36,325 nucleotides of DNA from a virus, in IMG/VR virus record IMGVR_UViG_3300005613_000205, positions 1 to 36,325 of that record, one strand, 5' to 3'. Below are positions 68-35,717 of this stretch, one piece after another. The notes under the pieces are model-generated. The model did no database searches, had not been told where the DNA came from, and saw only the letters and a program-made list of their open reading frames with translations. The position numbers and the translations under genes are program-made. The first letter of the stretch is position 1. Each line of letters begins with the position of its first letter.

Positions 68-97
68 ATTATACCACAGGTCGGCTGGTATTGCCAA
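68..97 (-). promoter_or_regulatory. sigma70-type promoter reading leftward out of the window
   Basis: On the minus strand a -35 box TTGGCA (97-92; one mismatch to TTGACA) is separated by 18 bp from a perfect -10 box TATAAT (73-68). The expected transcription start is near position 60. It lies after the terminase terminator and in front of a possible start codon at 21, so it most likely drives a new leftward unit. In T7-like phages host-polymerase promoters drive the early genes. The boxes are seen directly; the early role is inferred. Confidence 0.65.
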
Positions 98-150
98 GGA
101 TTTCTGTGATAATCTTTTCGCCCAAAACACATACAGCGACTCCGCGCATA

Positions 151-200
151 AAACAAAAAAGTAACCTAACGCAAGCCAACAGGGTCAAGCATTAGGTTAC
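151..200 (-). terminator. intrinsic terminator after the terminase gene
   Basis: The arms at 161-172 and 189-200 form a 12-bp stem on the minus strand (GTAACCTAATGC with GCGTTAGGTTAC, one T-G wobble) around a 16-nt loop. The descending arm is followed at once by TTTTTTGTTTT. This is a classic rho-independent terminator for leftward transcription, about 120 nt past the terminase stop codon. It would end the late transcript before the promoter at 68-97. Confidence 0.8.
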
Positions 201-316
201 TAATACAAAGGTATATCTAATAGTATATAGTATTGATAGTAAGGGTTTAGTAATAAAAAATCAAATAAACTTATATATACATTATATAAAAGCTACAATC
301 TCCAGATTCTTCAGGA
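201..316. other. AT-rich non-coding stretch between terminase gene and terminator
   Basis: This segment is strikingly AT-rich, with many TATA and TTTA steps, and contains no reading frame I would call. It is the 3' untranslated region of the late transcript. In T7-like phages the segment after the terminase gene is near the genome end, so packaging or end-processing signals could lie here, but I recognise none. Confidence 0.5.
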
Positions 317-12548: not shown

Positions 12549-12684
12549 TGAATAATGTAATCAAAAGTATAATGGCTATGCCCCAAGTAGCCAGGGTTAG
12601 GGCTCGTAGTTGTTTACCTCGTTGTTCAACAAGACTTTCCAACTCCCGTTCTCGTTCTGTAATAATTCTATAGTGTGGCGGCAT
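12541..12684 (-). CDS. 47-aa coiled-coil plus membrane protein, lysis candidate
   Basis: The frame encodes MPPHYRIITERERELESLVE then QRGKQLRALTLATWGIAII and a short end LLITLFNG. A charged helix (residues 8-28) is followed by one hydrophobic segment (about 28-45). It overlaps the end of the 76-aa membrane protein gene by 17 nt and the next gene by 8 nt, with no clear ribosome-binding site of its own, so it relies on coupling. A short single-membrane protein next to a holin candidate, after the fibre genes, could be a second holin, an antiholin or an inner-membrane spanin part. Confidence 0.6.
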   Translation of the reverse strand: MPPHYRIITERERELESLVEQRGKQLRALTLATWGIAIILLITLFNG

Positions 12685-12898
12685 TTGAAACGATTGAGAC
12701 AAGAATAGCCGATGCTACAGCTAACAGCCATTTAAGGATCTTCGACTGTTGTTCTAACACGATCAAAGTCTTTTCAATACCAGAAACATCATCTTCTAAA
12801 CCTAAAATTCTGTTCTCATGGTTCATTAGAAGATTAGCTTGCTCATGCGCTTTATCTCGTAGCTTTTTTATTTCTGCCTGTAGGTCTATTTCTTCCAT
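12668..12898 (-). CDS. holin-like protein (coiled coil plus C-terminal membrane segment)
   Basis: The 76-aa protein has an amphipathic, charged N-terminal coiled coil (residues 1-53, heptads such as ENRILGLEDDVSGIEKTLIV) and one C-terminal membrane segment, LKWLLAVASAILVSIVSN (55-72). This is the plan of XhlA-type hemolysin/holin proteins. T7 also has its holin (gp17.5) just after the tail fibre gene, which fits the position here. Its ATG overlaps the fibre stop by one base (TAATG). No endolysin is seen nearby; T7's is in the early region. The holin role is inferred. Confidence 0.65.
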   Translation of the reverse strand: MEEIDLQAEIKKLRDKAHEQANLLMNHENRILGLEDDVSGIEKTLIVLEQQSKILKWLLAVASAILVSIVSNAATL

Positions 12899-17693: not shown

Positions 17694-19472
17694 TTAGAAG
17701 GATTGGTAAAATGAATCTCCTGTTAAGTATAACAAGAAGTTTGCATCAATAAAAAAGTTACTTGAATTATAAGTACCAGATTGCGCTATAAATAAGGTAG
17801 AAGCAGAGTCATCTGGATATCTATATAGTTCAATAATCATATGCCTATACATATCACTACCAGTGTTGTTTGTAGGCATAAGTGTTTGGTTATTAGTACT
17901 TAGTCTAATTCGAGAGTTATTATATTCAGTAGCTAGTTCATTATATCTAGGACTACCAATTATATGACATCTTGAATCTATTTTAGGTGTAAATACTCTA
18001 GCCAATCCAACAGGATTTGATGTAGTTGAAAACCAACAATTTCCATTTACTACAAATCTTGGATCTTGATCTGCTGGTAAATTTCTTGTGTTTGATATGA
18101 CAAGATCTAAAAGAAGATTTTGTGAAAAAGTTACAAATAAAATAGGTTTGAACGCTAAGGGAAAGTTTGCTACTTGCGAAACTGGAGGATTACCAATTCC
18201 TACAAAATCAACTGATTGTATTGTAGGAAGACCTACATTTGTTCCAACTGCGTTCTGGTTTGGTGTAAAGAGAGCTTCAGAATAATAAAAATTGTTAAGT
18301 GGTAGAGTGGGATTTTTATCATATGCCAAGACCTCACACGCTTCATCAAACCCCCCACCAACGAAGTAAGCATCTGCATCAAAAAAGTTACTAAGATTTA
18401 CACCAGCATTTGCCGCATACTGGAATCCACAAATAGGAATATTTGATGCTTTTATAAAGGGTTTTCTATTTTGAAAATTTCCTGTATCTGTAAAGTTAAA
18501 CGCCTCATGCTGACTAAATGTATTAAACTTTGCGAAAGAATCTGTTAAAATTACACTTTTATCTGTTATAACTGCGCTTAAAGCATTTTGATTATATGAT
18601 ACTACTGGATCATCGAAAGGGTTTAGAGCTTCATAAGCATTGGTAGTATATAATCCAGAAGTATCAAAACGCAATTGGGAACCACCATATTCAGTACCAG
18701 TTGTAATGGTTATTGCAGAACCTGCGGTATCAAACTCTATACCAGAAGTGTTTGTTGCAGATAAATAAGAATCAATATTATTAGTGGTTGCATTAAAAGT
18801 TATAATTCTATAGTCACTATCTGCAAAGGGAGCATCTATACTAGCAGAAGCTCCAAGAACGCTTGTATCATATAATGTTCCAGTATAGAAGTTATCTGCT
18901 GAAAGACTGGTAGAGCTAACACTGTTGGCAATAATCTCTGTGTTATCAACATCATTAGTTCCTAAGACATTGTTTACAAAAGCAATATTCTTTGCAGACC
19001 AAGCCCCATTATCTGTTACTGCAAATAGATCGTCTCCAGTATCTGCGCTTGGAAAGGCTCCAGATTCAATCCAAGCATTTAAAGTATCATCACCTAGTTG
19101 AGCTAATAAATTAGCAGTGTTTAGTGCTAAAGTTAAAGATCTATTTAAAGCTCTTGAATCTAGGGCATATCCTTTTGGGTACTTTTGTTTTGTGAGATCT
19201 AGGAATAATGAGTTCAAAGAAGACTCAATCGTTACAATATCTCCTAACTTTGGTTGGTAATTTGTAAATAAAACATTACCATCAGCATCTAACTCCCAAG
19301 AGTATTTAGGATCATTTTGTGCAACTTCGCGTCCACCAACAACAACTTTTAAAGAACCTGTAGAAACTGCTGGAGGATAGTATAAAGGCGTACTTGCTCC
19401 ACTAGCAGTATAGATTCTGCGTAGTGGAGAAGTTACTCCCGACTTTGGTTGTGGTTCAATAGGTTCTACCAT
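17694..19472 (-). CDS. tail fibre protein with diverged T7 gp17-type N-terminal adaptor
   Basis: In this 592-aa protein residues 13-130 follow the plan of the T7 gp17 N-terminal tail-binding domain: SPLRRIYTASGASTPLYYPP, a middle with YSWELDADGNVLFTNYQPKL, and a helix YALDSRALNRSLTLALNTAN equivalent to the LNxxDLNxxxxQ segment. Then comes a beta-rich shaft with Asn, Thr and Ser (DNTEIIANSVSSTSLSADNF) and a C-terminal half of unknown fold that probably reaches the receptor. It is the second protein with this kind of tail anchor, so two fibre types may be mounted on one tail or joined in series. TAATG overlap with the first fibre gene. Confidence 0.8.
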   Translation of the reverse strand: MVEPIEPQPKSGVTSPLRRIYTASGASTPLYYPPAVSTGSLKVVVGGREVAQNDPKYSWELDADGNVLFTNYQPKLGDIVTIESSLNSLFLDLTKQKYPKGYALDSRALNRSLTLALNTANLLAQLGDDTLNAWIESGAFPSADTGDDLFAVTDNGAWSAKNIAFVNNVLGTNDVDNTEIIANSVSSTSLSADNFYTGTLYDTSVLGASASIDAPFADSDYRIITFNATTNNIDSYLSATNTSGIEFDTAGSAITITTGTEYGGSQLRFDTSGLYTTNAYEALNPFDDPVVSYNQNALSAVITDKSVILTDSFAKFNTFSQHEAFNFTDTGNFQNRKPFIKASNIPICGFQYAANAGVNLSNFFDADAYFVGGGFDEACEVLAYDKNPTLPLNNFYYSEALFTPNQNAVGTNVGLPTIQSVDFVGIGNPPVSQVANFPLAFKPILFVTFSQNLLLDLVISNTRNLPADQDPRFVVNGNCWFSTTSNPVGLARVFTPKIDSRCHIIGSPRYNELATEYNNSRIRLSTNNQTLMPTNNTGSDMYRHMIIELYRYPDDSASTLFIAQSGTYNSSNFFIDANFLLYLTGDSFYQSF

Positions 19473-20668
19473 TAGAATAGTTGAAATTGAAAATCAGCGT
19501 CTGCCGCAGCTGTTCCTAAAGTATCGGAGAAAACATAAACATCAAATCTTCCTAATGCTCCAGACCGCCCATTTACTCCAATTGTATATGCACCAGCAGG
19601 AATCTCATACAGATTAACATTTATAATCAGACGAGTTACATCAGGTTTAGCAAATACATCAGTATTTAAAAATAATCTATATTGACCAGTATTAATTCTT
19701 GTAACAGAACTTACACCATAAGTCTCGGGTGTCAGACCTATAGTTCCCGTAGCAGCAGTTCCAGAAACAGTACCCCATCCTTTAGTTGTGTTGGCTGCAA
19801 CAACCTTTCCCGATCCACTTAAGGCTAAAGCTACTTTATTATATTGACCAAACTCTGTTTGATCTAAATAATTAGGAAGTGTGTCTCCATAGTTATGAAG
19901 TAATCCCGCATTATCAAAAATTCTAGGTTGTATTCTAAATACTTCTTCGTTTCCTGGTTTAAAAACTATAGATCCCTGTTGTGTAGTACCAATTATAAAA
20001 GGATTATTTGAAAGATTCTTAATTTTTGTATAATCCTGACCATCATCATATATTACTAGACCACCACTTACATTGGAAATTGTTGCATTTTCTATGGTAG
20101 CACTAACAGAGCTGACTTCTGTAGCAGAAACGCTTGCACTTTTTACTGTATTAAAAGTAGCATTATTATCAATACCTAAACCTAAAGTATCAAGAACAAA
20201 CGCGGGGGATCGGATCTGCCAAAGTCCTCCTTCAGAAACAAGGAAGAAATCATCCTCTTGTCCCTCTCCAGGAAGAGGAGCATTTCCAGCACCCTCAAAT
20301 AGTCCTTCAGCTTCTAAGTAGTCATCGTAACCCTCTTGTTCAATAAATAAAATCTGCTTAAAAGAGTTATTTAGATCTTCAGCGTTTAGTGGCTCATTAG
20401 TAAAAGTTTTGTAAATATTGTCTCTGGGTGTATCTCTAAAAACAATAACCTGTGATCCTAAAGGTGGAGCAGATCCTGTGATTACAACCGCAGTTGGGTT
20501 ACTTAAGCTATCTGGTGCCCAGGGATATGTTGCATCATCTCGCTCAATAATGACATCATTTATTTCTAATTTAATATCAGCTTGAGAGATGACATCAAAA
20601 GGTATAGGACCAAAGTTTGTCCTTGATCCTGTACCCTGATAAATAACTTTTGATTTAAAGTCAACCAT
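19472..20668 (-). CDS. tail fibre protein with T7 gp17-type N-terminal domain
   Basis: Residues 1-115 form the conserved anchor that attaches T7-like fibres to the tail: VIYQGTGSRTNFGPIPFDVI, GSQVIVFRDTPRDNIYKTFT and EPLNAEDLNNSFKQILFIEQ. A short shaft (TEVSSVSATIENATISNVSG) follows and then a C-terminal beta-sandwich (INTGQYRLFLNTDVFAKPD, near residue 330). With 398 aa it is shorter than T7 gp17 (553), suggesting that the receptor-binding end is on the later genes of this cluster. The ATG lies 25 nt after the GG of the AGGAACTT element, with AGGAG as ribosome-binding site. Confidence 0.9.
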   Translation of the reverse strand: MVDFKSKVIYQGTGSRTNFGPIPFDVISQADIKLEINDVIIERDDATYPWAPDSLSNPTAVVITGSAPPLGSQVIVFRDTPRDNIYKTFTNEPLNAEDLNNSFKQILFIEQEGYDDYLEAEGLFEGAGNAPLPGEGQEDDFFLVSEGGLWQIRSPAFVLDTLGLGIDNNATFNTVKSASVSATEVSSVSATIENATISNVSGGLVIYDDGQDYTKIKNLSNNPFIIGTTQQGSIVFKPGNEEVFRIQPRIFDNAGLLHNYGDTLPNYLDQTEFGQYNKVALALSGSGKVVAANTTKGWGTVSGTAATGTIGLTPETYGVSSVTRINTGQYRLFLNTDVFAKPDVTRLIINVNLYEIPAGAYTIGVNGRSGALGRFDVYVFSDTLGTAAADADFQFQLF

Positions 20669-20686: not shown

Positions 20687-20704
20687 AAGTTCCTATTCCT
20701 CTAA
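20687..20704 (-). promoter_or_regulatory. candidate phage late promoter, copy B, before the fibre cluster
   Basis: The minus-strand sequence is TTAGAGGAATAGGAACTT, followed by CCTGAT and the ribosome-binding site AGGAG. It overlaps the stop codon of the giant gp16-like gene. T7 has promoter phi17 at the same relative place, just before its fibre gene. It shares TAGGAACTTCCT with copy C. Either a phage polymerase promoter or a conserved leader element. Confidence 0.5.
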
Positions 20705-23700
20705 AGCAGTCATTAGAGCTTGCATAATTTTGAAGAATCTAGCGTTGCCTGACATCTTTTGTAAATTGTTATCAAAGTTTTTAGGTTTTACACCAGCAGC
20801 CTCAGATGCAGCTCTTACTTTTTGATAGGTATTGCCAGGGTTATATTCATAGATACTTTCCATACTTTGTCTGATATCTTCATCAGCCGCACTTTTGGCT
20901 AGGTTAAAAGCATCTTGAGTAGGTTGTTTTATAACATCCCTGAAGAATCTGTAGGCGGCAATTCCGTTAGCAAGATCAATAGCAGTTTGATCCTTGTGTT
21001 GGAATTCATTTTCGTACCAAGAAGTAGGATCTTGAACTCCTGTCATGCTATATGCAATATCAGAACCAAAGTCAGCCACACCTAAAAGACCAAGTAGAGA
21101 TCCTGCAATAATTCTTCCTGTTGGAGTCAGGTTTTCTCCTTGATCTCTATTTAGATCTTCTTTGACCTTATCTGGATTGTAGATAGCATACTGTAAGAAA
21201 GCATAGGCTGTACTCATCATCGCAGTAGTTACTAAAGCAGCAGTAGCATTAGCTCTTGACTTTGACAACATAGGTCCGCCTTGAGGACTGGCAGCCCTTT
21301 GTAGTAGAGGTACAACCATCTTCTGATACTGAGCTACACCAAAACTTCTAAACTGTCCAATAAGCTGTAAGAAAGGAGAACTCATAAAGAGTGGTAAATC
21401 TCCTGCATCTGGTCTTACAACATTTTGACCAACCCAGTTATATACTGGTGTTAAGATTTTTGATCTATAACTAGGAGGCATAACTCTATCGTGCATCAAA
21501 GATCCTAAATCGTAGTATTTTATTCCATTCTTTACTCTTGGTTTATGTCTTTCTAAAGATGCTCTCATAACTAAAATAAAAGATCTAAAACTACTATAAG
21601 AAAACCCTAGTTGTGCAAAGACTGGTTTTGGGATAATACCGTGTATGATATCATTACCTCTGCTGTTTTTAACAGATCTACCAACATCGGTTGTTAAAAT
21701 TTCAATTTGTTCAGGAGTAAGTTTTTCAATTCTTCTGATTAGTTTAGTCATAAAGCTATTGAATACAATCTCTTGAGACTTCTTAGTGATAAAGTTTAGA
21801 GAAAAGTATTTACCTAATTTAGGTAGTTTATCAGATCCTGGAATAAGTGGGAACAGGTTTCCTTCTGCTCCTGAGTCAATTGCGTTATCTAAATACTTTT
21901 CTACTCCTCTTACAACTTTATCTTTAGCAGATGGTCTACCTACTTCTTCGGGTTTTGCAGCAGCAGTAGTTATTGGGTTATTTTCGTCAAAGACAAGCGA
22001 TGCTCTAGTAGATCCAGTGTTTCTATATAACAAGCCCTCTGTTCCCACACCAGCACCGTACATAACATCAAGAAGGAAACCTTGTTTTTTTTCTAGTTCA
22101 GCAATTTGTCTTTGAAGCTCAAACACTTCTTCAGTAGTTCCCTGCTGTCTGCTTAGTCTTTCAACCTGCCTTTGTAGCTTATCAATCTGGGGTTGGAAGT
22201 TTTCAATGCTTTGAGCACCATCAATAACCTGAGAGATAATTGGAATCTTGCTAACAAGTCTTTGCATATTTCTGGCGGTTACAACAGAAAGCTCAACCAT
22301 AGCAGGAATACCAAATCCAGCAACACTAGCAGCGTTAGCTCCTTTTTGCATTAGTCTAATAAAGTCACCAACCTCTCGTTTGTGGTTGTTTTTAACCTTT
22401 CCAGTAATGACAGACTCCATGTACTCAAGCATACGAAGACTCTCACGAACATTGGTTACTTTACCAGCCTTTACTAAAGCGTCTAGCTCTGATTTGATAA
22501 GGTTAAATATCTCTGAAACACTTTCAAATCTAACTATATTTCCATCAGCATCTTTTACATTAGCTGCTTTAAGTCTATCGTTGAATTCAGCAATAAAGGC
22601 GTCTTCCATCGCAACATCAATAACTCTTTTTCCTTGATATTCGATGTCATCAAGACCATAATAAGCACCAAGATCAGCTAATGAAAATCCTTCAATAGTA
22701 GAATCGGTTGCATCTATTTTTGATCCAATTTTAGATTTACCTTTTATTCTTTTATATTCTTCATTTTTAGTGACATTCTGGTCAATAGCTACTGTGTGTT
22801 TCTTTTCAGTATTAACCTTAATGCCAATCTCATTGTTTTGTATATTTTCTATTGCGAATTGTTCTTCTGGGCTGAGATTTCTTTTATTGGAAAACTTCTC
22901 ATCAAACATAGCTCCATAAAGATCTTCAAAGAAAGTATCTATATCTTTTAGAGTTTCCATGTTATCAAGAACTTCTCTTATACTTTCTTTGATAGCTGGC
23001 ATGTCAAGGTTTCCATTTTTGTCAAGTGTAACTTCAAAGTTATATTTTAATTTAATTCTGTTTAAAACGTTACTGTTTAATCCTATCGTAAAATTAGTAT
23101 TTAAAAACTTAACTTTAAGTCCATTCTTAAGTTGACTAAGATGCTCAATACCACCATTAACAAAAGTCTTTTTATTACGATCAAAACGAAGATTTTGATT
23201 ACTTTCAATAGCTCTTTCTATTTTAGGAAGTATTGTAGTCTCATATCTTTGTCTTTGTTCAGGAGTTAAGGCATCTATTCCTTTTTCTTCAACAATGCGT
23301 ACAATAGAGTTATCTTCAGCAGTAAGTCTATTACGTTTATCTTTTAAGAATCTAATTGCAGCCCCTATTTCAGTAGGTCTGTTAGAAACTTTTGTAATAG
23401 CTTCTAGTAATAATGGTTTCAGAGAAGCAACAGAACCGAAAAATGATTTAAATTCAGATCTTGGGAACAATTCATCAAGTAATGTCTCAGCTAACTCTTG
23501 ATCTGATATTCCTTTATATTGGCCCTGATCAAACTCTGGGAATACTTCTTTTAATCTTCTTACATCTAAATGCTCTCTTATTAGCCTGGTTACAATCTTT
23601 CTATTTGCCCGTGGAAGGCCATCAAGAAGATTTAGCTGTGAGAGAACGGTAAGATTTCCAGAACGAATCTCAGCTAAAATAAGATAAGCTAGTAGATTCT

Positions 23701-26700
23701 TTGCACCCGTACTCAAAGGAAGTCCGTTGCTATTCTCTAACTCAAGAGAATCACTTATGACTCTTTCTAGTTGTCCATCTTCTAAAACCCTATCTAAACT
23801 AATTAAAGAATCATTAGAAAGAATATTTAGTTGCGCTCGTTCATAGATAATTTTACGTAAGGGATGATCCACAGGAAGTGCTCTTGCCATACTTTGTCTA
23901 ACCCTATCTACTTTAGCCATATGGTCTATAACTTGAACCACATTACTAATTTTTACTTCTCTATCTGTTGTAGTTCTAATGTCTAACTCTTCAGGAATGG
24001 TAAATCCAAGCTCCTCTATATCTGTTAAAAAGTCTATTAGACTTTCAGTGGTTCTTAGTCTTTGGAATATCTCATTAGCGGTTGGAACTTTTTCGTCATT
24101 TAAAAGAGCTTTTTCTCTAGCCCACTTTACACCCTCATAAAGAACTGTTAGTATCTCATCAAACCTTTCTGGTGTTACATTTAGGGTTTTTATCAGATAG
24201 GCTTGCTTCTTTCTAAGAGTGTCCATCTTACCTAAGAAGTTACCAAGTAGTCTGTTTCTATACCTAGCTATACCATAACTAATTGGGCTTCTGGCAGCGT
24301 GGTGATCACCAGCATTGTAAAGTTTTCCATTAACTTTTTCAAATAGCTCTGATCCAAATACCATTCTTCCTATCATTCTAATAACACCAAGCTCATTAGC
24401 TCCTGCTCTTGATCGAGCAGATCTTAGGAAGTTTAGTTCTGGAAAAGATCTTGCAAATGCTGTAAATGGTATGTCTGATCCAATATTAGCTATCCATTCT
24501 CCAATAGTATTTACAACCTTTCCTCCTGCGGTTGACCAATACCTCTCTAACTCTACAAGTCCTCTTTTGCGACTTACGTTGTTTCTGAAAGATCCTCTAG
24601 TCAAGACCTTAAGATCAGAAGCAATAAAACCCATTCTCTGAGCAATATTCTCAGATAACGCTCCAAACAGTTTGAAAGGAAGCTCTAAGAAATCACCAAT
24701 ATTGATTCTCCCTGATTTAGGTCCAGAAGGACGCCTGCGGCCACCGCCTAAACCTGGATCTTCTGGTGGATCTATAATCGTTTTTAGTGTTTCGTTTAGT
24801 GTATAGTCACTATAAATATCATCCAAGTTCTCATAATAAAACTCCTCTAGAAACTCCCTGTAAGTGGCTCGCTTTTCTTTAGAGATAAGATCTTTTATAA
24901 AGTCTTTTGCTTTATTGAAATCAAAATCTAAAGTTTTTATAACCTGAGTCAGAGCCTTAGCAATTCCTTCCTCAGTTCGTAAAATAGTTAAATCATTTAG
25001 TAAAAAGTCAGCAAACTCATCAGCAGTTGTAAGTAAGCTAAATTTTTCTAACTTTTCTGTTTGAGCTTTTCTAATTACTTGCTCTGCTGTAATTGTAGGA
25101 TCAAAAGTAGTATACTTGACCCGTTGCTTAGGCTTTCCAAAGTTATCAAACTTTAGTCTAGAGATTAGACTTTCTGCATTTTCTACATAGTTATCCATAG
25201 CCCTATCAATAACATTCCTTACTTCTTCTGGGAAGTTATCGTACATTGGGCTATTTAGAACATCTTTAAACCTTTCTTTTATAGTTGCAATTCTTTGTGT
25301 AGCATCTGCAATTCTTTCAGCTAGTTTAGCATCTGTAAGCCTTGCTAGATCGTCAGTAGAGAATCGCACAGCAGCAAGCTCTAGATCAAAATTAAGGAAA
25401 GTGTCAATGTTATCGAAAATCTGTTTTACATCATCAGGAATGACAGCATTTGCATACTTATCAGTAAGCCCCTTTATAAAGGTTTTTAGTTCAAACCTGA
25501 TCTGTTGAGCAGCGGCTCTTGGAAGTTGAGCATCATCAAATACACCTGATCTTAGGAAATCTAGACGCTGGTAGTTTACTGAAACCTCTGGATAAGGCTC
25601 ATCAAGGGCTGCTAATAAATGAACTTGATTTATGCTTTTCTGAATGTTTTCCTCTATAGAGTCCAGAACCTCTAAATAAGCAGCACTATCTGTTTTTTGT
25701 TTGGCTGATCGTACTGAGTTTAGTTTTGTTTCTAATTCAATTCTGATTCTTTGAACCTGATCTTCTATGACTGACTTGCTTGTTTCCATATCAAACTTAT
25801 CAGCCCAATCTCTTACAGTCTTGTCAAAGAACTCAGCATACTTACCTAAAGACTCAGTAAGACTATCGTAAATGTCTTGTACAAAAGGATCTTTTTCTAG
25901 ATTAGCAAACTTTTCTGCTCGACTTTTGTAGTAACGCACCTCAGAGTTCAGGTCTACAATATCTCCATCAGACAATCCAAAATAGTCTCGATTATCAATC
26001 ATGTACTGAGCAATTTTGGCTTGTCTGTTGAAGTACTTAGTTTTTTGTTTTACGCTATTTGGGTTTAGATGAGAAAGAACCTGCTCAACATTAGCAACCC
26101 AACGCTTCCATCCTTCTTGTCTTGAGCTTGGAAGAAGAATAGCTTCCAGTCGTTCTGGTAGACCCATAGGTCCGATTGGGCCAAGAATAGCCTCAATATC
26201 CCCCTCTGTTGGAACTCTACCCTTAGTCGCCTTGCGTAGTTCTTGAGCAATCTTTTCTAGTTCAAGAGTTACAGTTCTATGAAGACCTCCAACAACATAA
26301 GCACTATCTTCAAGAATTTGTTTTAGGTTTTCTCCTTTGGATAAAGCATCAGCAATATAAGCATAAGTAATATTATTTGCTACACTAAACCCAAAAACAA
26401 AATCCTCAGCAAAGGGGAAGTAGTTTGCGTATACAGCCCTGTAATATAGCTCAAAGTCCATATCAGTAATGTGAGGAATGTCTTTCATAACTACATCCAT
26501 AGGAATATAGTGTAGTCTATCAGTAAGGTTATTTACTACAGCCTCTTTGAATGAAGTAGGTGCAAAGATATTGCCTGTCATTCCAGCGAGCTTTGCTCTA
26601 AACTTGAATAAATCAAATCGAGTTCTATTGGCTGGATCAATACCAAGAGCATTATATACTCGTTCTAACTGTGGAGTTTGTCTATCCTTAAGAGCAGCCC

Positions 26701-29700
26701 GAGAATCAGCTTGCTCTAGTCTATCCATAGCCTCAAAAACATCTGATAGTCTAGAAACTAATTGAGGTAATGCAGCACCATCATAATCAAAATCAAAGTA
26801 TGCTGAATCTAGTTCTAAATCAGAGAATGTTGCAGCAATAGTTTTTAAGAAATCATCAAACTCTTTTAGGGTTTCCTTTAGAGCTTTAGTGCTGAACAGA
26901 GTCTGAGTGTCTAAGAGTGGGTTGTAAGGATCACTCAGCATATGGAATGAATCCCACATAATAGGCATCTTGCCTTGACCACCAACTCGGTTACTCCAAA
27001 GTCGTCTCAGAGTTTTATATACTTCTTTTTTAGGTAGGTTATATCGTTTAGCAAGCTCTTGTGCGTAGCTTTTTAGCTCTTTGCTACTGGCAAAAGGAGT
27101 GTTTAGATCTTTAGCAAGATCATCAGCTAAGGACTGTAGGATCTTCTCACGAATTTGAATTCGTCTTTCAAATGCGTTCTTGACCAAACCTGCTGGATCA
27201 ATACCTGTTACCTTGTGGAACAGCTTGTTCATAGCACTAAAAAGTTTAGCGATAGGACCAATAAAAAGATCCATGCTGATATACCCCCCTTTATCGCTAC
27301 TTGGTGGTCTTCTTCGTAGTGGTTTCTTTGGTTTCTTTTGGCCTTTTAGCTGATCCATAACCTGTTGTCTGGTGGAACGAAGGTAGTTCTCACCAGTAAC
27401 GACATCAGCCATAAAGGCTTCTAAGTTAGCTCTCTCAGTAAAGATAACACCAACCTTCATACCTAACTCTTCTAGAGCTTTGGATGTTGTTTCGAGCATA
27501 CTTTGATAAACTTGATTCTTCTCTGCGATTATCTTTTGTGCTCTTGGGTTTTGATTCTTAGGATCTGTTGCTCTAGCGTTGTTTTGGGCAATATACCTAT
27601 TTATATCTGCTTGACGCTTAAGTAACTTTACAGCATTATCTAAAATGCGCTTTGAGTAAAGGTACTTATTCTTCAGCCTTTCAAAGGCACGAAGAGCAAA
27701 ACGAACTCTCTTGAAACTTTCTGGTTGTGACCTTTGCCAAGAAGCATACTCTTTTAGTCTAGCTACGGTTTCTGGCTTTGGTTTAGTTACAAAAGGCTTG
27801 CCGTAGGATGGACGACCAGTAAGCTGATAGTCTAAATCCTTGTTCAAGTATTCCCCAGCAATCTCTCTTAGAACTTCCATTGGAGCACCTAGATCTCTTA
27901 TAGGTTTTCCTCTTGATCCCCCAATTGGTCTTCGAGCCCAAATATCTTCCCAGAGAGTTGAATGTCCTTCCATAGCTGCTCTAAGCGCAGCAAGTTCTCC
28001 TTCTACACCATCATTTAGTGATTTGAGAGCAGCAAGTTCAGCGTCAGTTAGATCAATCTCTTTTTTTGCCCATAGAAGCTCAAGGGTTCTAATCTTTGAA
28101 GCAAATACAGCTAGAGCTTTCTCTGCGCTAACGTTTTCTCCAACACTTCCCAGAATCTTAGATCCCTTTATTTTATCAAAAATTCCTTTTAGGACTGGAT
28201 TCCTCTCAAACTCACTTAAAGCAAACTGGAGTCCTACAGGATCCTCAAAGATCTTAGGAACCAAAGCATCTTTTTCAAGTATGGTCACATCCCCTTCTGC
28301 TCTTAGCGCAAGTGTAGCGGCTAGAATAGCATCATCAACATCCATTCCCTTTTCTTCTATAAGCTCAAGAGCCCTTAGAACAATAGGAGAAGCATCAGGA
28401 TCATCCTCAAGAACCTCTATAAGTCTGTGAACCTGTCCATAGTCTTCAAGATCAGCTAGGTTTTCTGCTTCTAAACTTCTTTGATTCTTTTTATCAGCTT
28501 GCTTTCTTGCTTGTGCTTCTAGCTTTCCTCTTTTTTGAATAAGAGCTTCAAGGGCTGGAATAACTCCGTTCTCATCCAAAGCAACAAGATCAGCAATAGG
28601 AACCTTGATCTTTCTTTTCTTGGGAAGTTCTCCTTGAAGCTCGTTTGTTCTGTAGTATTCTAAAAGGTTCTTTATGGAAAAATCACCAAGTTCCGAACTA
28701 TCACCAATGATTCTGAGGATACCTTCTGATAAACCTAACTTGTAAACAACACCTGCTAATTTTTCTGCATTAGAAAGGTCGCTGTTTGCTATAATTACTG
28801 CTTCTCTAAACTTTTGAACTGTAGGATTATCAATATTCTGGTCAGAAATGTCAAATAACCTATAGAAAAACCTAGATACAAAGGGAGCATTGTCATCAAC
28901 AACTTTGTCTATACGCTCTTCAAACTTAACTCTTTCTTTTGTCTTAGGACCTCTTTGCTGAATTCTCTCAATTTCATCTAAAGTATAACCCTTGTCGAAC
29001 AGATCAATAATACCTTGTGCGTCATACCCAGCAACAGTTCCGTCTACTGGTTCATCTATTAGACCACGACTAGCAGCATTATCTATAAGCTCTCTTTCAA
29101 CATCAGATAAGACATATAAAGGAATTCTAGGCTGAACACGCTCTGCTGGAGGAAGAATATCTTGCTCAGGATCACCACCAACTCTTTTAAGAGAGGGCGT
29201 ATCTCCTTTAGCTCTATCAACAATAACTACTTCACCATCAGAACCAATGAAGACATCAGCGTCGTCTAGGTTGTAGTCATCTTTATCTAAACGAGCTTTA
29301 GCATCATCAGGCTGAGTAGCTTCATCCAGAATATTTTTTACTTCTTGAGCAACTTTTGCTACATCATCAAGAGATTTACCAACTTGATCTGCTGCTTGTA
29401 CTTTAGCTTCGGCTGCTTTTATCTTTTTGGCTGCTCTTGCATTGAAAGCATCTAAACCTGTAGCAGCACTTTCAAAACCTACACCAAGCAAAGCTCCAAT
29501 ACCAAATGCTGATTTTAGATCAGCAGGATTTCTCATTGGATCTGATTCTTTACTATAAGCGTGCATATAAGCAGCGGCTTCCATTCCTCCAACTGTACTA
29601 TCAAAAAGAGCTCTACCAAAAAAGGCTTTAGCTCCTTCCTTTCCAAAAAGACTAGTAGCACTTGCTCTTGCTAGTCCAGCAGTTCCAAAACCCATCAGCA

Positions 29701-30862
29701 ATCCAACAGGATCAGCAAAGCCTATACCACCTTGCATAGCTAGTCTACCAAGTTGTAGGTCCGCACCAAGTACATTGTAGTTATCAAAATACCCAGCATA
29801 AGCCTCTTCAAAAGCTACTGCGTTCTTGAAAGCCTGATCTACAGCAAGAGCTTCTGTAACACTTTTTGATTGAAGAACTCTTGTGACCATCTCTTGAGAC
29901 ATGCCTTCAGTAATCTCATCAAATAAGTCCTGGTGATCTTTCCAGCTAAATGCGGGATCAGCAGGAAGAAATCTAGCAATATTATCAGAAGATCTCACGT
30001 CTTCTTGTTGCATATTAGCTAGTGGATTTCTTTCATTTATAGCTTTCCTAGCTGCTTCTTTTGCTAAAGCACTACCATAGTTGTAAACAACATCATGAGT
30101 CATTCCAGTTTGGAAGTGTTGTCTAGCTAAATAGTCAGCAATCTCTCCGTATCTCTGTATTCCTGTAGGAGTACCTACATCTTCTGGATTAAGATCCTCT
30201 ATTTTGTCAGTTTTGAAGATTGCTTTTCCAGTCTGATCTCTAGTCATATAAGGTGAAAGACTAAAGACACCCATGTTTGTAGCGAAAGCTCTTTGTCTTT
30301 CTAATACTGCTTCCTTTCTTTCGTTTCCAAGAACATCAAAAAATGGAATGTTATAATCTATAAGCGTAGTTCTTTCTATAGGAGCTACATCTTTGAAGAA
30401 GTTGTCTTGAAAAGCCTTTCTTCGAGCAGGTAAATCGTCAAACTTAGTTTCATTTAAGACATAATCATAAAAGCCCCCCATGTAATCTCTGACCGCCTGG
30501 GGAGAATACTGAATAGGATCGGGGTTTTGTTGTAAATATAGTGCTTGATAAGCGTCAACAAGTTGTTTGTTTTTTGGTCCTCCTAAATCAAAAGATCTAA
30601 CTGCATTATTTAAAGCAGCAGTAGTCTTTCCCTCTCTTAGAAGTCTATTGTACTCACCAGTATCTCTATCTACTTGAGTTAGTCTTTCTACTTCTTTAGA
30701 GATATCTTTAGTTACACTCGCACCAGAAGGTTGAGGCCATCTAAATCTAGTCGTAGTTACAGCCTCATAAACCTTTTTTCCAGCCTCTTTTAGAAGAAAC
30801 TCTCTCCAATCTCCTTCTTTACGAGGTCTATATCCAGACTCAAAGTTAAAACGATCTTGCAT
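20693..30862 (-). CDS. giant internal virion protein (T7 gp16-like), 3389 aa
   Basis: This is an ejected core protein that in T7 builds the trans-envelope DNA channel. Two regions resemble T7 gp16: residues about 370-470 (LGRLAMQGGIGFADPVGLLM, then GALLGVGFESAATGL) and the last about 540, with AMVELSVVTARNMQRL near 2855 and LFMSSPFLQLIGQFRSF near 3160, followed by hydrophobic LVTTAMMSTAYAFLQYAI. T7 gp16 has 1318 aa; here about 1,900 extra, mostly helical residues lie between them. I see no lytic transglycosylase motif at the N-terminus, where T7 has one. Two Arg/Pro linkers (near 1175 and 2035) may divide modules. At 10.2 kb it fills over a quarter of the window. Confidence 0.88.
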   Translation of the reverse strand: MQDRFNFESGYRPRKEGDWREFLLKEAGKKVYEAVTTTRFRWPQPSGASVTKDISKEVERLTQVDRDTGEYNRLLREGKTTAALNNAVRSFDLGGPKNKQLVDAYQALYLQQNPDPIQYSPQAVRDYMGGFYDYVLNETKFDDLPARRKAFQDNFFKDVAPIERTTLIDYNIPFFDVLGNERKEAVLERQRAFATNMGVFSLSPYMTRDQTGKAIFKTDKIEDLNPEDVGTPTGIQRYGEIADYLARQHFQTGMTHDVVYNYGSALAKEAARKAINERNPLANMQQEDVRSSDNIARFLPADPAFSWKDHQDLFDEITEGMSQEMVTRVLQSKSVTEALAVDQAFKNAVAFEEAYAGYFDNYNVLGADLQLGRLAMQGGIGFADPVGLLMGFGTAGLARASATSLFGKEGAKAFFGRALFDSTVGGMEAAAYMHAYSKESDPMRNPADLKSAFGIGALLGVGFESAATGLDAFNARAAKKIKAAEAKVQAADQVGKSLDDVAKVAQEVKNILDEATQPDDAKARLDKDDYNLDDADVFIGSDGEVVIVDRAKGDTPSLKRVGGDPEQDILPPAERVQPRIPLYVLSDVERELIDNAASRGLIDEPVDGTVAGYDAQGIIDLFDKGYTLDEIERIQQRGPKTKERVKFEERIDKVVDDNAPFVSRFFYRLFDISDQNIDNPTVQKFREAVIIANSDLSNAEKLAGVVYKLGLSEGILRIIGDSSELGDFSIKNLLEYYRTNELQGELPKKRKIKVPIADLVALDENGVIPALEALIQKRGKLEAQARKQADKKNQRSLEAENLADLEDYGQVHRLIEVLEDDPDASPIVLRALELIEEKGMDVDDAILAATLALRAEGDVTILEKDALVPKIFEDPVGLQFALSEFERNPVLKGIFDKIKGSKILGSVGENVSAEKALAVFASKIRTLELLWAKKEIDLTDAELAALKSLNDGVEGELAALRAAMEGHSTLWEDIWARRPIGGSRGKPIRDLGAPMEVLREIAGEYLNKDLDYQLTGRPSYGKPFVTKPKPETVARLKEYASWQRSQPESFKRVRFALRAFERLKNKYLYSKRILDNAVKLLKRQADINRYIAQNNARATDPKNQNPRAQKIIAEKNQVYQSMLETTSKALEELGMKVGVIFTERANLEAFMADVVTGENYLRSTRQQVMDQLKGQKKPKKPLRRRPPSSDKGGYISMDLFIGPIAKLFSAMNKLFHKVTGIDPAGLVKNAFERRIQIREKILQSLADDLAKDLNTPFASSKELKSYAQELAKRYNLPKKEVYKTLRRLWSNRVGGQGKMPIMWDSFHMLSDPYNPLLDTQTLFSTKALKETLKEFDDFLKTIAATFSDLELDSAYFDFDYDGAALPQLVSRLSDVFEAMDRLEQADSRAALKDRQTPQLERVYNALGIDPANRTRFDLFKFRAKLAGMTGNIFAPTSFKEAVVNNLTDRLHYIPMDVVMKDIPHITDMDFELYYRAVYANYFPFAEDFVFGFSVANNITYAYIADALSKGENLKQILEDSAYVVGGLHRTVTLELEKIAQELRKATKGRVPTEGDIEAILGPIGPMGLPERLEAILLPSSRQEGWKRWVANVEQVLSHLNPNSVKQKTKYFNRQAKIAQYMIDNRDYFGLSDGDIVDLNSEVRYYKSRAEKFANLEKDPFVQDIYDSLTESLGKYAEFFDKTVRDWADKFDMETSKSVIEDQVQRIRIELETKLNSVRSAKQKTDSAAYLEVLDSIEENIQKSINQVHLLAALDEPYPEVSVNYQRLDFLRSGVFDDAQLPRAAAQQIRFELKTFIKGLTDKYANAVIPDDVKQIFDNIDTFLNFDLELAAVRFSTDDLARLTDAKLAERIADATQRIATIKERFKDVLNSPMYDNFPEEVRNVIDRAMDNYVENAESLISRLKFDNFGKPKQRVKYTTFDPTITAEQVIRKAQTEKLEKFSLLTTADEFADFLLNDLTILRTEEGIAKALTQVIKTLDFDFNKAKDFIKDLISKEKRATYREFLEEFYYENLDDIYSDYTLNETLKTIIDPPEDPGLGGGRRRPSGPKSGRINIGDFLELPFKLFGALSENIAQRMGFIASDLKVLTRGSFRNNVSRKRGLVELERYWSTAGGKVVNTIGEWIANIGSDIPFTAFARSFPELNFLRSARSRAGANELGVIRMIGRMVFGSELFEKVNGKLYNAGDHHAARSPISYGIARYRNRLLGNFLGKMDTLRKKQAYLIKTLNVTPERFDEILTVLYEGVKWAREKALLNDEKVPTANEIFQRLRTTESLIDFLTDIEELGFTIPEELDIRTTTDREVKISNVVQVIDHMAKVDRVRQSMARALPVDHPLRKIIYERAQLNILSNDSLISLDRVLEDGQLERVISDSLELENSNGLPLSTGAKNLLAYLILAEIRSGNLTVLSQLNLLDGLPRANRKIVTRLIREHLDVRRLKEVFPEFDQGQYKGISDQELAETLLDELFPRSEFKSFFGSVASLKPLLLEAITKVSNRPTEIGAAIRFLKDKRNRLTAEDNSIVRIVEEKGIDALTPEQRQRYETTILPKIERAIESNQNLRFDRNKKTFVNGGIEHLSQLKNGLKVKFLNTNFTIGLNSNVLNRIKLKYNFEVTLDKNGNLDMPAIKESIREVLDNMETLKDIDTFFEDLYGAMFDEKFSNKRNLSPEEQFAIENIQNNEIGIKVNTEKKHTVAIDQNVTKNEEYKRIKGKSKIGSKIDATDSTIEGFSLADLGAYYGLDDIEYQGKRVIDVAMEDAFIAEFNDRLKAANVKDADGNIVRFESVSEIFNLIKSELDALVKAGKVTNVRESLRMLEYMESVITGKVKNNHKREVGDFIRLMQKGANAASVAGFGIPAMVELSVVTARNMQRLVSKIPIISQVIDGAQSIENFQPQIDKLQRQVERLSRQQGTTEEVFELQRQIAELEKKQGFLLDVMYGAGVGTEGLLYRNTGSTRASLVFDENNPITTAAAKPEEVGRPSAKDKVVRGVEKYLDNAIDSGAEGNLFPLIPGSDKLPKLGKYFSLNFITKKSQEIVFNSFMTKLIRRIEKLTPEQIEILTTDVGRSVKNSRGNDIIHGIIPKPVFAQLGFSYSSFRSFILVMRASLERHKPRVKNGIKYYDLGSLMHDRVMPPSYRSKILTPVYNWVGQNVVRPDAGDLPLFMSSPFLQLIGQFRSFGVAQYQKMVVPLLQRAASPQGGPMLSKSRANATAALVTTAMMSTAYAFLQYAIYNPDKVKEDLNRDQGENLTPTGRIIAGSLLGLLGVADFGSDIAYSMTGVQDPTSWYENEFQHKDQTAIDLANGIAAYRFFRDVIKQPTQDAFNLAKSAADEDIRQSMESIYEYNPGNTYQKVRAASEAAGVKPKNFDNNLQKMSGNARFFKIMQALMTALEE

Positions 30863-30867
30863 AATAT

Positions 30868-33800
30868 TTATTTTTGAACTATTCTTTTATAGTGGTCGTA
30901 TAAAACCATACCGTCTTTACCAAACTCTTTTGTAAAGTATGAAAGATTTAGGTTAGTAGGATATGAAGCAAACTCTTTCTCTAACTCAGCAACAAACTCA
31001 GCTTCATTTACAGACTCTGGAGTATTGTCACCAAGTTTCTTTCTAACTCTGGGCCATATTTGTGAACTGCTTGAGTGGGTGTACTTTTGAACTTGATCTC
31101 CTAAGTCCTCTATACCAATCACGAATGGGTTGTTTGTTTTCTTGTGTCTTAGAGCTTGCCCAGCTTTGTTTGCAACTACATAAGTGAAGTCATCTTGAGG
31201 AATAAGAGTAAGGTGCTCATTCCCATTATCAAGATCAAATCCAGTCCAATCAAGCTGGACTTCTTCGAGGTTTTCAGCAACTTTTGTTGCATCTGTAAAG
31301 GCTTGTAACGCATCATAAGTTAGTAAATATTCTAAGTAGGAGTCTGGTCCAGTTCTTTCTAAGTTCCTTTCAACTTCCTTTCTACGCTTGGCGTTTCTTG
31401 AAACTCGCTCTTCTACACTAAACTCATCTCGGAAAGGACGATAAGCTCTATATAACATTCTTTCAAACTGCTTTCTTACTTCTGATGCTGGTAGTTCCTT
31501 GTTTTCCTTCATGTATGCGGCTGTCATATCACTCAACATAACATCAAAAGTCTTTCTATCTGTAATAGGAACAAAATTAGAATCTACGCTGTTTTTATAT
31601 AACTTGAAGGCGTGGTCAAAGGACCTACCTGCAAGCCCAATATTTAAATTACCATAATCCTCAGAGGCTAATTCAGAGATACCTGTAATAACTTTACCAG
31701 CCTCTGAGTCATTAAGTGCTGGTTGAGTCCTTTTTTCTTCCTCTCTCATGATACCAGCTACTATCTCATTTTGTAGTTCGCCTCTGAACCTCATGATTTG
31801 AGCATTAGCAGAAGATAAAGGAGCTTCTGTTGATAAAGTTTTTAGATCTCTTAGGTATCTCATTATAGCCATTGATCTATCATCCTCATCAGGGTTCAGA
31901 TTCTGTAGATAAGGAATATGACCTTCATCATAGATTATTGAGACAGAAGCATGATCGGCAGGCGCCCACGGCCAGAAATAATCTCCATCTACAACTTGTT
32001 GGTAAGTAAACTTATCTTTAGTTTTCTTTGCAGCTTCTAGGCCAGCCTCTTTATCAGAATAGTTTTTACCTTTTAGAGATCCAAAGACATCTCCATAAGA
32101 ACCTAAAATGTGCTGTTTAAGTTCGCTAGGAAGGTTAGCTAAATTAGTTGATTTATTAATACCAGGAACTGCTCTTTCAATAAGTGCATTTACTCCTAGT
32201 CTTTCAACAGTCATCTTGGCATTACCTGGATCTACAAAAGGAATACTATCCAGGCTAAATCCATACTCTTGTTTTTGCTTCTTCTCTAGTGCTAACTTTT
32301 CTTCTTCTTGTTTGACTTCCTCAAAGGTTTCTGCAAAGAGTCCTGGATAAGTATCTTGAGTATAGTCAACACCATCTAACCTTAGAATAGTTTTTCCTAT
32401 CCTGCTATCAGTATCAATGAATACATCAAGAACTCCCTGCTCATTAGCTTGAGCCAGAGTTTGCATCAAAAATGGGTTTCCTCTTACAGCAGTCTCTGAG
32501 CTAAATACAGGATCTATTCCATATTCAGGACCACCCATCTGTTCTACCTCTTTTAGTAAATTAGCAGTGTCCCAGAACCTAGCAACAACCTTATTTCTCT
32601 CTTCTTCTGAACTTTCTCCTCGTATAGCTTCTTGATAGCCACCAAACCCATTAGCAATAAAACCTCTTACAGCACTATCAGTAGTAGATTGAGAGTCGTT
32701 TCTCGCCTCCAATAGATATCTTCCAGTAGCAGTTCTGTTATCTGTTCCATCTACAAAGGATTCTAAAGAATCTACTACCGCTTTAGTGACCTGAGCGTTT
32801 CTCTTAGCTGTATTTGATATTTGTTGTGGAGCATTTGCTCTTGTTAGCTGTTCTTTGAGTCTACCCAGTCTAGCTGCATAGCCTTCTGGATCAATATCCT
32901 TCAAAAATGAAAGCCTGCTTCTAAGTTCTTCAGCTAACTCCTCAGCAGTTTGTGGTCCTTCGTTGGTTTGCTGATTCTGTTCTAGAATATAACCAAAAGT
33001 ATTTATATCAGCATCAATCAGTTCTAAGGGTATTGCTTGTTCTCTGTAGAACTCAGCAGTAAGTCTGTTTCTTTCTTGTAAAGATTCTCGTCTAGCTCTC
33101 TCTTCCTCGTCTTGAGCTTTCTCGAATAATAGATTTAGAACTGCTTTACCTTTATCTGTGTCCATAAGAGAACCAGTTCCTGATCTAAGCTCACCTACAA
33201 CTTGTCTTGCTAATGTTGGACTTTGAATATTAGCTCCAAGCATATCTAAAATAAGATCAGTTGGATCTGCTCCTAGTCCTCCAAAACCTTCATCAGAGAA
33301 GTTGTAAAGCTCATCATAAACTGTTTGCATCTCTTCAATCGTTTCATTGAAGAAATAACCATCAAGCAGTCCTTTCATTTTATTAGGACTTTCAAGTTGT
33401 TCTCTCAGATATAGTTCTACATCGTCAATACGATCTTCTGGAATATATTTGAGTAGATCTTCTTTTGTAATGTCTCCATTACGATAATCAGTAATAAGCT
33501 CTTTACCAAATTCAACAAATCTGTCAGCTACATCAGCATCAGTGGATTTACCTAACTCTTCTCTGTATAAATTATAAGCATAAAGAGCAGAACCTATTCT
33601 AGCACTCTGCGTATTTATGTACTTATTTCTGTAATGCTCATTAGCCTCTCTACGATACTTCTGATTTACGGAAGTAAGTAATACTCCAGCCTTAGATAAA
33701 AAGCCTTCTTGAACATCTGTATTCTGGGGAAGAGAAGCATAAGTAAGATCAAACATTCTACGCATCTCTTCTTCAAAGCGATCAGGATCTTCATAGAATG

Positions 33801-34257
33801 TTTTACTTTGTTTGAGATTACTGTAAACATCATCAATGCCTACCTCTAAGTTTTGAATAAGAGATATGCCCTCTGCTTTAGATAACCCTCTTTGGAAAAA
33901 GGGATCATCAAGCAAATCAATCTGACCATCCTGTCTTAGACTTCTAAAGGATGATTTTAGATTGTTTTGACGCTCCTCAAAGGTATTACCAGATACATCA
34001 AAAGCTAATTTAGAACCAGCAATCTGACCTGCTCTTTCAGCCGCTTGTCTTCCTCTTTGAATAGTTGGTTTCAATAAAGAAGAACCAAGATCCTGAACTT
34101 GGGAAACTAGATTTCTAAGGTTTTCATACTTTCTAGCATCTAGTTGACCCTTTCTTGCAATAATATCAGACTCACCTTGAGCTATATTTGCTGGGTCAGA
34201 TGTAGTTACCTCCATTTGAGGTAGCTGAAAACCTAAACTGTCTAACATTCTTCCCAT
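30868..34257 (-). CDS. internal virion protein (T7 gp15-like), enlarged
   Basis: This 1129-aa helical, highly charged protein lies between gp14-like and gp16-like genes, the place of T7 gene 15 (747 aa). Gp15 forms the middle of the internal core and, after ejection, the periplasmic part of the DNA tunnel. Long alpha-helical stretches such as ERARRESLQERNRLTAEFYR and IDPEGYAARLGRLKEQLTRA are visible; no transmembrane segment and no enzymatic motif are. Assignment is mainly by position, size and composition. It starts 1 nt before the gp14-like stop and ends 5 nt before the giant gene's ATG. Like its partner it is larger than in T7. Confidence 0.8.
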   Translation of the reverse strand: MGRMLDSLGFQLPQMEVTTSDPANIAQGESDIIARKGQLDARKYENLRNLVSQVQDLGSSLLKPTIQRGRQAAERAGQIAGSKLAFDVSGNTFEERQNNLKSSFRSLRQDGQIDLLDDPFFQRGLSKAEGISLIQNLEVGIDDVYSNLKQSKTFYEDPDRFEEEMRRMFDLTYASLPQNTDVQEGFLSKAGVLLTSVNQKYRREANEHYRNKYINTQSARIGSALYAYNLYREELGKSTDADVADRFVEFGKELITDYRNGDITKEDLLKYIPEDRIDDVELYLREQLESPNKMKGLLDGYFFNETIEEMQTVYDELYNFSDEGFGGLGADPTDLILDMLGANIQSPTLARQVVGELRSGTGSLMDTDKGKAVLNLLFEKAQDEEERARRESLQERNRLTAEFYREQAIPLELIDADINTFGYILEQNQQTNEGPQTAEELAEELRSRLSFLKDIDPEGYAARLGRLKEQLTRANAPQQISNTAKRNAQVTKAVVDSLESFVDGTDNRTATGRYLLEARNDSQSTTDSAVRGFIANGFGGYQEAIRGESSEEERNKVVARFWDTANLLKEVEQMGGPEYGIDPVFSSETAVRGNPFLMQTLAQANEQGVLDVFIDTDSRIGKTILRLDGVDYTQDTYPGLFAETFEEVKQEEEKLALEKKQKQEYGFSLDSIPFVDPGNAKMTVERLGVNALIERAVPGINKSTNLANLPSELKQHILGSYGDVFGSLKGKNYSDKEAGLEAAKKTKDKFTYQQVVDGDYFWPWAPADHASVSIIYDEGHIPYLQNLNPDEDDRSMAIMRYLRDLKTLSTEAPLSSANAQIMRFRGELQNEIVAGIMREEEKRTQPALNDSEAGKVITGISELASEDYGNLNIGLAGRSFDHAFKLYKNSVDSNFVPITDRKTFDVMLSDMTAAYMKENKELPASEVRKQFERMLYRAYRPFRDEFSVEERVSRNAKRRKEVERNLERTGPDSYLEYLLTYDALQAFTDATKVAENLEEVQLDWTGFDLDNGNEHLTLIPQDDFTYVVANKAGQALRHKKTNNPFVIGIEDLGDQVQKYTHSSSSQIWPRVRKKLGDNTPESVNEAEFVAELEKEFASYPTNLNLSYFTKEFGKDGMVLYDHYKRIVQK

Positions 34258-34258
34258 C

Positions 34259-35194
34259 TTATATCTTCTCTACATTTAGTTGGTTAGCCTGATTTACTAT
34301 ATCAGTAGCCTCTTGTTGTGCTGATGCTAATTGTTCAGGAGTTGGAGCTACCCCTACTGTGTTGTAATAAGTACCAGCAGCTTTTAGACCATCACCAATG
34401 ATTCCAAGAACAAGATCAGTCTGATCTGGAGCTTGATCAGCTAGACTTTGAATCTTCATTCTGCTTGCTTGATACTTGACTACTAAATGCTCTCTCATAG
34501 CAATTCTTTTTTGAATACTCTTGTCCTTCAACCTTTCTTTGAACTCAAGCTCATTCCGTCTAAGAGCTAATTGAAGAACATTATAAGTTGATCCAGCAGA
34601 AGTCTCGCCCTTAGCTACAGTGAAAGTTGCTCTTTTCTTTAGAGCTTGTCTTTCAACCTGGTTTAGAGTATCGTTCAGAGCAATATCTTCTAAGCGATTT
34701 CTATTCAAAAACATAGCATTACGAGTCTTGACCACATTGACTTCGTTTTGCATCGCCTGTTTGATAGCCTTCTTTTGTTTTTTATGTGCATTTACAGCAC
34801 TAATAGCCATGACTGCAAAAGCAGCAATAGCTAAAGGACCAGCTACAGCGGCAGCAGCAGTTCCAGCAGCTATCGTAGAAGTTAAACTAGCAATTGATCC
34901 AACAATACCAGCAGTTTGAGCAGCACGATCTGGACCACCTGATCTTGGACCTCCAGCAGAACCAGGATCTCCAGATTGCATTAGTTTAGTTCCTGTTGGA
35001 GCACCTATTTTGAACTGTGTTGATAGTGCTTGTTGTACTTTTTGTTGCTTTTGCTGTTGAGTTAACCTATTAGGATCATCAAGTGCTTCTCCAAGTGTAC
35101 CAAAAGTTCTTGCAGTAGATTGATATGTTCTATTCTGTAATGGAACTCCGACTGCATCATCAAAGGCTTTATAAGCATAATTAGGATTGTACAT
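34259..35194 (-). CDS. internal virion protein (T7 gp14-like)
   Basis: T7 gp14 is an ejected core protein that makes the outer-membrane pore. This 311-aa version has a hydrophobic Ala/Gly-rich stretch (residues 94-134, including IAAGTAAAAVAGPLAIAAFA) followed by a long helical region. A segment of the gp14 type, KKRATFTVAKGETSAGSTYN, is followed by VLQLALRRNELEF, matching the A-x-G-x-S-G-S-x(5-10)-R pattern before long helices. The N-terminal 90 residues (Gln- and Gly-rich) are extra compared with T7 gp14 (196 aa). It ends 1 nt before the next gene. Confidence 0.85.
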   Translation of the reverse strand: MYNPNYAYKAFDDAVGVPLQNRTYQSTARTFGTLGEALDDPNRLTQQQKQQKVQQALSTQFKIGAPTGTKLMQSGDPGSAGGPRSGGPDRAAQTAGIVGSIASLTSTIAAGTAAAAVAGPLAIAAFAVMAISAVNAHKKQKKAIKQAMQNEVNVVKTRNAMFLNRNRLEDIALNDTLNQVERQALKKRATFTVAKGETSAGSTYNVLQLALRRNELEFKERLKDKSIQKRIAMREHLVVKYQASRMKIQSLADQAPDQTDLVLGIIGDGLKAAGTYYNTVGVAPTPEQLASAQQEATDIVNQANQLNVEKI

Positions 35195-35195: not shown

Positions 35196-35717
35196 TTATT
35201 CTTCCTCTAAACAATCAGGATGAAATTGACAGAAGAATACGAACTTCTCTTCAGCAGCAGAGATAATATAATCCTCTTCAAAGAATAAGAAACCAAGACT
35301 CTTCAACCAGGTTTTATGTAGTGTGTTCTCGTCCCAAATGTAATTGAAAAGAACATCATACTCTTCAAACCAGTTATTGATTACATTTTGTGATATCTCA
35401 TGTAAAGCCTTTTTGTGCTTGTATACTTCATCAGTTCCTACAGCCCAAATTAGACCTGATCTTGCTTCTTCTTTTTCTTCTGTTCTATCAGAAATACCGA
35501 AAATCATACAAGGAATCTGCTTGTGACAAACTACCCAGATGCTATCAGCGTTCTCAATGCTATATTTCAGACCTTCTATTGCTGGCTCATCAAACAAAGC
35601 CTCTAACTCTCTTCGATCTACATCTCTAAGGTTATTAGCAAGATACTCTAAGTCTGTCTCTAAATACTCTCTTATGATGATATCTGGGTATTTCCTTGTC
35701 ATCTTATCTGAATCCAT
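35196..35717 (-). CDS. internal virion protein A (T7 gp13-like, GNAT fold)
   Basis: T7 gp13 (138 aa) is a minor protein needed for virion assembly and related in fold to GNAT acetyltransferases. The diagnostic part is residues 117-160: FEEYDVLFNYIWDENTLHKT, then WLKSLGFLFFEEDY and FVFFCQ, matching T7 KYDTLWNYVWVGNTSHIRFL and FHEEY. The N-terminal part begins like a GNAT domain (IIIREYLETDLEYLA). No complete acetyl-CoA loop (Q/R-x-x-G-x-G/A) is apparent, so catalysis is doubtful. The ATG at 35717 has a poor ribosome-binding site; an in-frame ATG five codons later is an alternative. Confidence 0.85.
   Translation of the reverse strand: MDSDKMTRKYPDIIIREYLETDLEYLANNLRDVDRRELEALFDEPAIEGLKYSIENADSIWVVCHKQIPCMIFGISDRTEEKEEARSGLIWAVGTDEVYKHKKALHEISQNVINNWFEEYDVLFNYIWDENTLHKTWLKSLGFLFFEEDYIISAAEEKFVFFCQFHPDCLEEE

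Follow-up and report, generated by a model that had tools for sequence, protein, structure and literature searches.

A probable gp16-type ejection protein of 3,389 residues with an enlarged central region in a T7-like podovirus

The DNA analysed here, hereafter the window, is a stretch of 36,325 nucleotides (positions 1 to 36,325 of IMG/VR virus record IMGVR_UViG_3300005613_000205) from a virus represented in metagenomes alone. PHROGs matches identify T7-like proteins in its terminase, tail tubes, capsid, scaffold and portal, and its ejection genes follow the order 13-14-15-16-fibre (Table 1), such that the last and largest of them, hereafter the giant, directly precedes the tail fibre gene. 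The giant is encoded by 3,389 codons without interruption, and the plus strand across the same span is rich in stops. The original prediction had placed a gp16-type ejection protein of this length here, and the open minus-strand frame, the gene order and the gp16-type evidence presented below all agree with it.

Table 1. Positions of the ejection genes, the parts of the giant and the neighbouring regulatory features in the window
Feature	Position	Strand	Remarks
Sigma-70-like promoter, TTGGCA-18-TATAAT	68..97	-	TG before second hexamer; downstream of terminase
Perfect-stem inverted repeat	160..201		After terminase gene; T run follows on minus strand; terminator-like; also in G001
T7-type tail fibre N-terminal domain	19472..20668	-	Gene after the giant; PF03906, E 2e-8
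Giant gp16-type ejection protein (probable)	20693..30862	-	3,389 aa, 382 kDa, no cysteine
Giant, C-terminal hydrophobic pair	21056..21238	-	Residues 3209-3227 and 3245-3269; counterparts T7 gp16 1136-1154 and 1189-1207
Giant, QFRSF motif	21341..21355	-	Residues 3170-3174; QFKSF in T7 and SP6, QFRSF in phiKMV
Giant, expanded central region	21356..29443	-	Residues 474-3169; 2,696 aa vs about 700 aa in T7
Giant, N-terminal hydrophobic pair	29444..29743	-	Residues 374-398 (DPV motif at 384) and 449-473; counterparts T7 gp16 328-348 and 390-408
Giant, N-terminal part	29714..30862	-	Residues 1-383; no SLT signature
gp15-like partner	30868..34257	-	1,129 aa, no cysteine; assigned from position alone, no profile match
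gp14-like protein	34259..35194	-	311 aa, no cysteine; Pfam T7_gp14 E 8e-5, slightly below cut-off
gp13-like protein	35196..35717	-	PF11090 above cut-off; phrog_308 E 4e-29; BLAST to T7 gp13 E 1e-11

A second contig, IMGVR_UViG_3300005613_000111 (G001), encodes a homologue of the giant at the same gene position (3,316 aa, 32% identity), and we therefore dismiss an assembly fusion as the source of the giant's length. The G001 gp15-like partner is 31% identical to that of the window, while the terminases of the two contigs are 86% identical, so that the ejection proteins have either diverged far faster or been exchanged. Beyond G001, relatives of the giant were found neither by tblastn in 50,697 phage records, nor by querying IMG/VR with the giant, gp15, tube B and terminase, nor in two scans of bacterial and archaeal genomes; the nearest phage records by the window terminase show about 34-35% identity. 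Because the giant family has only two known members, AF2 models built on the two-row alignment were unusable (pLDDT 34 for residues 1-560 of the giant and 42 for a 391-residue central piece). The central region is charged and, in these low-confidence models, mostly helical, and its conservation is highest at about residues 1285-1775, 2039-2466 and from 2679 onward. RRRP linkers recurring near residues 1183 and 2042 hinted at gp16-like modules duplicated inside the giant, a possibility that neither self-BLAST nor block-to-block hhalign supported, and matches to GreA, sigma-54, HetR_C and similar families (E 0.02-0.3) were taken as chance.

Several observations point to the giant being a gp16-type protein. 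The G001 giant matches phrog_342, the family of T7 gp16 (E 1.4e-20), to which T7 gp16 itself matches over its full length, and the window giant matches phrog_16310, a family whose function is not named, near its C-terminus (E 4e-7). A DP motif within a hydrophobic stretch occurs at residue 384 of the window giant and 396 of the G001 giant, as well as at residues 338, 138, 176 and 136 of the gp16s of T7, SP6, phiKMV and HTVC019P respectively, and a QF[RK]SF motif lies near the C-terminus in the window (3170), G001 (3109), T7 (1107), SP6 (1095) and phiKMV (1189). By each of these two anchors sits a pair of hydrophobic, putatively membrane-embedded segments, the spacing of which is similar in the window giant and T7 gp16, and the two proteins are further alike in gene position and in being free of cysteine. 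Direct comparisons gave less: BLAST returned no significant match between the window giant and T7 gp16, and weak C-terminal matches to the phiKMV and SP6 proteins; hhalign of the giant's end blocks against an alignment of nine gp16 sequences yielded probabilities of 30% for the N-terminal and 12% for the C-terminal block; and custom block HMMs scored hardly above shuffled controls. The proposed resemblance of both ends to T7 gp16 thus stands on the PHROG matches, the motifs and the hydrophobic pairs, but not on any direct BLAST match to T7 gp16. We put at roughly 70% the probability that the giant is how a T7-like podovirus encodes its gp16-type internal core/ejection protein, and that the counterpart of gp16-C, its central region, has grown from ~700 to ~2,700 residues.

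The anchors also show where the extra length sits. They are separated by 2,786 residues in the giant, as against 769 in T7, 957 in SP6 and 1,013 in phiKMV, an excess of about 1,800-2,000 that bears out the predicted insertion of ~1,900 residues. Another 383 residues precede the DP motif, about 200-250 more than in the gp16s of SP6, phiKMV and HTVC019P (135-175), which lack the transglycosylase (SLT) domain. Overall, the giant is about 2.5 times the length of T7 gp16 (1,318 aa). The reference gp16s measure 1,165-1,639 aa, with four more at about 1,180-1,260 aa by annotated coordinates; the same 1,165-1,639 aa holds for the SLT-less gp16-type proteins of SP6, phiKMV, P-SSP7, Syn5, P60 and the pelagiphages, whose central region is smaller than that of the giant.

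In T7, the tunnel consists of gp15 and residues 1-228 of gp16, and a published model places gp16-C (residues 411-1118) in the host cytoplasm, where it forms a DNA-binding ring (PMC8954989). Since the stretch between the anchors corresponds in T7 to gp16-C, the added mass of the giant would, by this analogy, most likely lie on the cytoplasmic side, outside the periplasmic tunnel. Alternatively, the extra length could build a longer ejection tube, suited to a host with a thicker envelope. Such a tube would be in keeping with the longer stretch ahead of the DP motif and with the size of the gp15-like partner, which has 1,129 aa in the window and 1,183 in G001 compared with 673-1,000 in nine reference phages. 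However, most of the extra residues follow the N-terminal hydrophobic pair and so fall in the equivalent of gp16-C, the cytoplasmic ring of T7 (PMC8954989), and we regard a longer tube as unlikely. It follows that, of the longer channel or extra host-delivered domains originally envisaged, the extra domains fit better and the channel has less in its favour. The partner was also said to be enlarged, and it is, although its 1,129 aa barely pass the known range (P60, 1,000 aa).

While T7 gp16 carries an SLT domain, the giant does not appear to. A profile search with PF01464 gave no match in the giant at E<=1 (T7 gp16, as positive control, E 1.7e-31), and a motif scan found the set of signatures ES / GxMQ / AYNxG to be absent. 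Both searches therefore uphold the statement that the N-terminus lacks the E-S and G-x-M-Q signatures, and no other peptidoglycan hydrolase domain was matched in the giant by profile search either. The sole AYNxG-like motif, at residue 259 of the window giant, was rejected as an SLT signature, being lost in G001. Among the nine reference gp16s, SLT is present in those of T7 and YIMV22061 and absent from those of P60, Syn5, CRP-143, P-SSP7, SP6, phiKMV and HTVC019P. The SLT-less proteins resemble the giant in occupying the same operon position without an N-terminal transglycosylase, and in being free of cysteine save for one residue in P60. What is novel in the giant is the size and location of its extra residues; the absence of SLT is ordinary. 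The suggestion that wall digestion has moved to another protein found no backing, as none of the window proteins scanned gave a hydrolase match and an SLT-less gp16 is the usual state (seven of nine).

A further explanation is that the giant or its gp15-like partner contains a peptidoglycan hydrolase so divergent that profiles fail to reach it. Residues 1-383 of the giant lack an explanation, and the gp15 of SP6 gives a lysozyme-type match, as does, weakly, that of P60. Neither window protein, nor the relatives of either, matched a hydrolase in Pfam, PHROGs, NCBIfam or PDB. This absence is weak evidence, since phiKMV gp36, annotated in its record with a virion lysozyme motif, is likewise overlooked by Pfam; the absence from G001 of the AYNxG-like motif counts against a hydrolase as well. 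On balance, we consider a hidden hydrolase possible but doubtful.

The amino acid composition of the giant bears on its fate. Its 3,389 residues include no cysteine where 21.6 would be expected from the other window proteins (Poisson 4e-10), and the insert taken alone (residues 481-2925) is equally devoid of it. The G001 giant has a single cysteine in 3,316 residues, and the gp15-like proteins of both contigs and the window gp14-like protein have none. The same pattern holds in the reference phages, where nine gp16s contain one cysteine in 12,230 aa and nine gp15s contain none, and in the first 2,342 residues of the virion RNA polymerase (vRNAP) of phage N4, which are likewise cysteine-free. 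For N4-type vRNAPs, the lack of cysteine has been proposed to relate to injection or passage through the tail (PMC3915230). We read the lack of cysteine along the whole chain as independent evidence that the entire giant, along with its insert, belongs among the ejected proteins.

The N4 vRNAP also provides a precedent for the giant's size, as it is a chain of ~3,500 residues that is ejected as 'beads on a string' (PMC12633501). The vRNAPs of N4 (~3,500 aa) and DEV (3,398 aa), both Schitoviridae, resemble the giant in being cysteine-free single chains of ~3,400-3,500 aa with two partner ejection proteins. Could the giant be their analogue, a single-chain enzyme of ~3,400 aa that is ejected and initiates transcription? 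Its ejection-type neighbours would suit such a role, which would also explain why an RNA polymerase gene was found in neither the window nor G001. The giant differs, however, in having no polymerase signature or sequence match: DxxGR and a motif-B-like sequence are absent, no HD is common to both giants, BLAST against N4 gp50, for which the first 2,342 aa were compared, gave chance-level matches only, and the ends and neighbours of the giant are T7-like rather than N4-like. Nor did the giant match any solved chain, even though a published crystal structure exists for the N4 vRNAP polymerase domain. We therefore hold a vRNAP analogue to be extremely improbable.

Transcription of the ejection operon may fall to the host. 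The G001 counterpart of the promoter in Table 1 reads TTGCCA-18-TATAAT and is directed toward gp13-16, and the segment in which the inverted repeat is followed by the promoter (window 68-201) is nearly identical in the two contigs despite a coding divergence of about 25%. A strong sigma-70-like promoter that is near-unchanged in a relative suggests that host RNA polymerase drives the operon.

The gene content of the two contigs is unusual, consisting of virion genes and small ORFs; no DNA polymerase, RNA polymerase, helicase/primase or endolysin was recognisable in the window or in IMGVR_UViG_3300005613_000111, parts of which are cited here as L001, L008 and L009. Both window ends fall in L001 inside a single 816-base interval (11285-12101) that separates terminase from gp13, so that the window and its relative together suggest a circular or permuted unit of some 37 kb carrying virion genes only. 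Such a unit might be a bipartite genome, a helper-dependent genome or an assembly artefact. When a second genome segment was sought in IMG/VR by the promoter sequence, only G001 was found. In G001, two distinct portal-to-terminase modules (L001 1539-10965 and L009 3-7504; about 70-79% nucleotide identity) flank gp13-16 and the fibres, and the contig's end equals an internal position (L009 9617-9743) over 127 bases at 99%; these modules likely come from two strains that were fused during assembly through a sequence common to both.

Several further ORFs of the window deserve mention. A GIY-YIG-type homing endonuclease (9258-9848, minus strand; phrog_314, E 1e-26) adjoins the portal gene, and an ORF of the same kind is present at the equivalent place in L009. 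Two ORFs on the plus strand, one of 65 aa with CxxC pairs that look zinc-ribbon-like by eye (11521-11718) and one of 67 aa (11711-11914), are oriented opposite to every other gene and lie in a block strongly conserved with L008. Finally, a 76-aa ORF on the minus strand (12668-12898) has a C-terminal hydrophobic helix and, by eye, might be a holin or XhlA-like protein. No Rfam match was obtained in the 9-13 kb region of the window.

If the giant works as T7 gp16 does, a few copies would form part of the core that lies above the portal, and the chain would be passed unfolded or partly folded through portal and tail. Its N-terminal part would pack against the gp15 tunnel and its hydrophobic segments would insert into the inner membrane, with the expanded central region reaching the host cytoplasm. 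There, the extra residues might form a larger DNA-translocation ring, protect the early DNA or serve a host-directed function. Our first choice is that the insert is a larger, non-enzymatic hub for DNA handling, as no enzyme signature was found in it and gp16-C of T7 binds DNA. A bolder reading combines the genome unit with the giant, in that a T7-like phage with a ~37-kb virion-only unit, bipartite or helper-dependent, would eject ~382-kDa proteins whose ~2,000-residue central insert serves a host-directed function that no other phage is known to have, in place of the vRNAP of N4; we think this very improbable.

Under the gp16-type reading, the presumed cytoplasmic part of a T7-type ejectosome can grow about fourfold while its ends remain recognisable, which makes the giant a natural comparison for the function of gp16-C. 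Alongside N4 vRNAP, it would add a second kind of protein with ~3,400 residues that must travel through a podovirus tail. The near-absence of cysteine from gp15- and gp16-type proteins, seen in nine reference phages, would, if more widely true, offer a cheap marker of ejected proteins.
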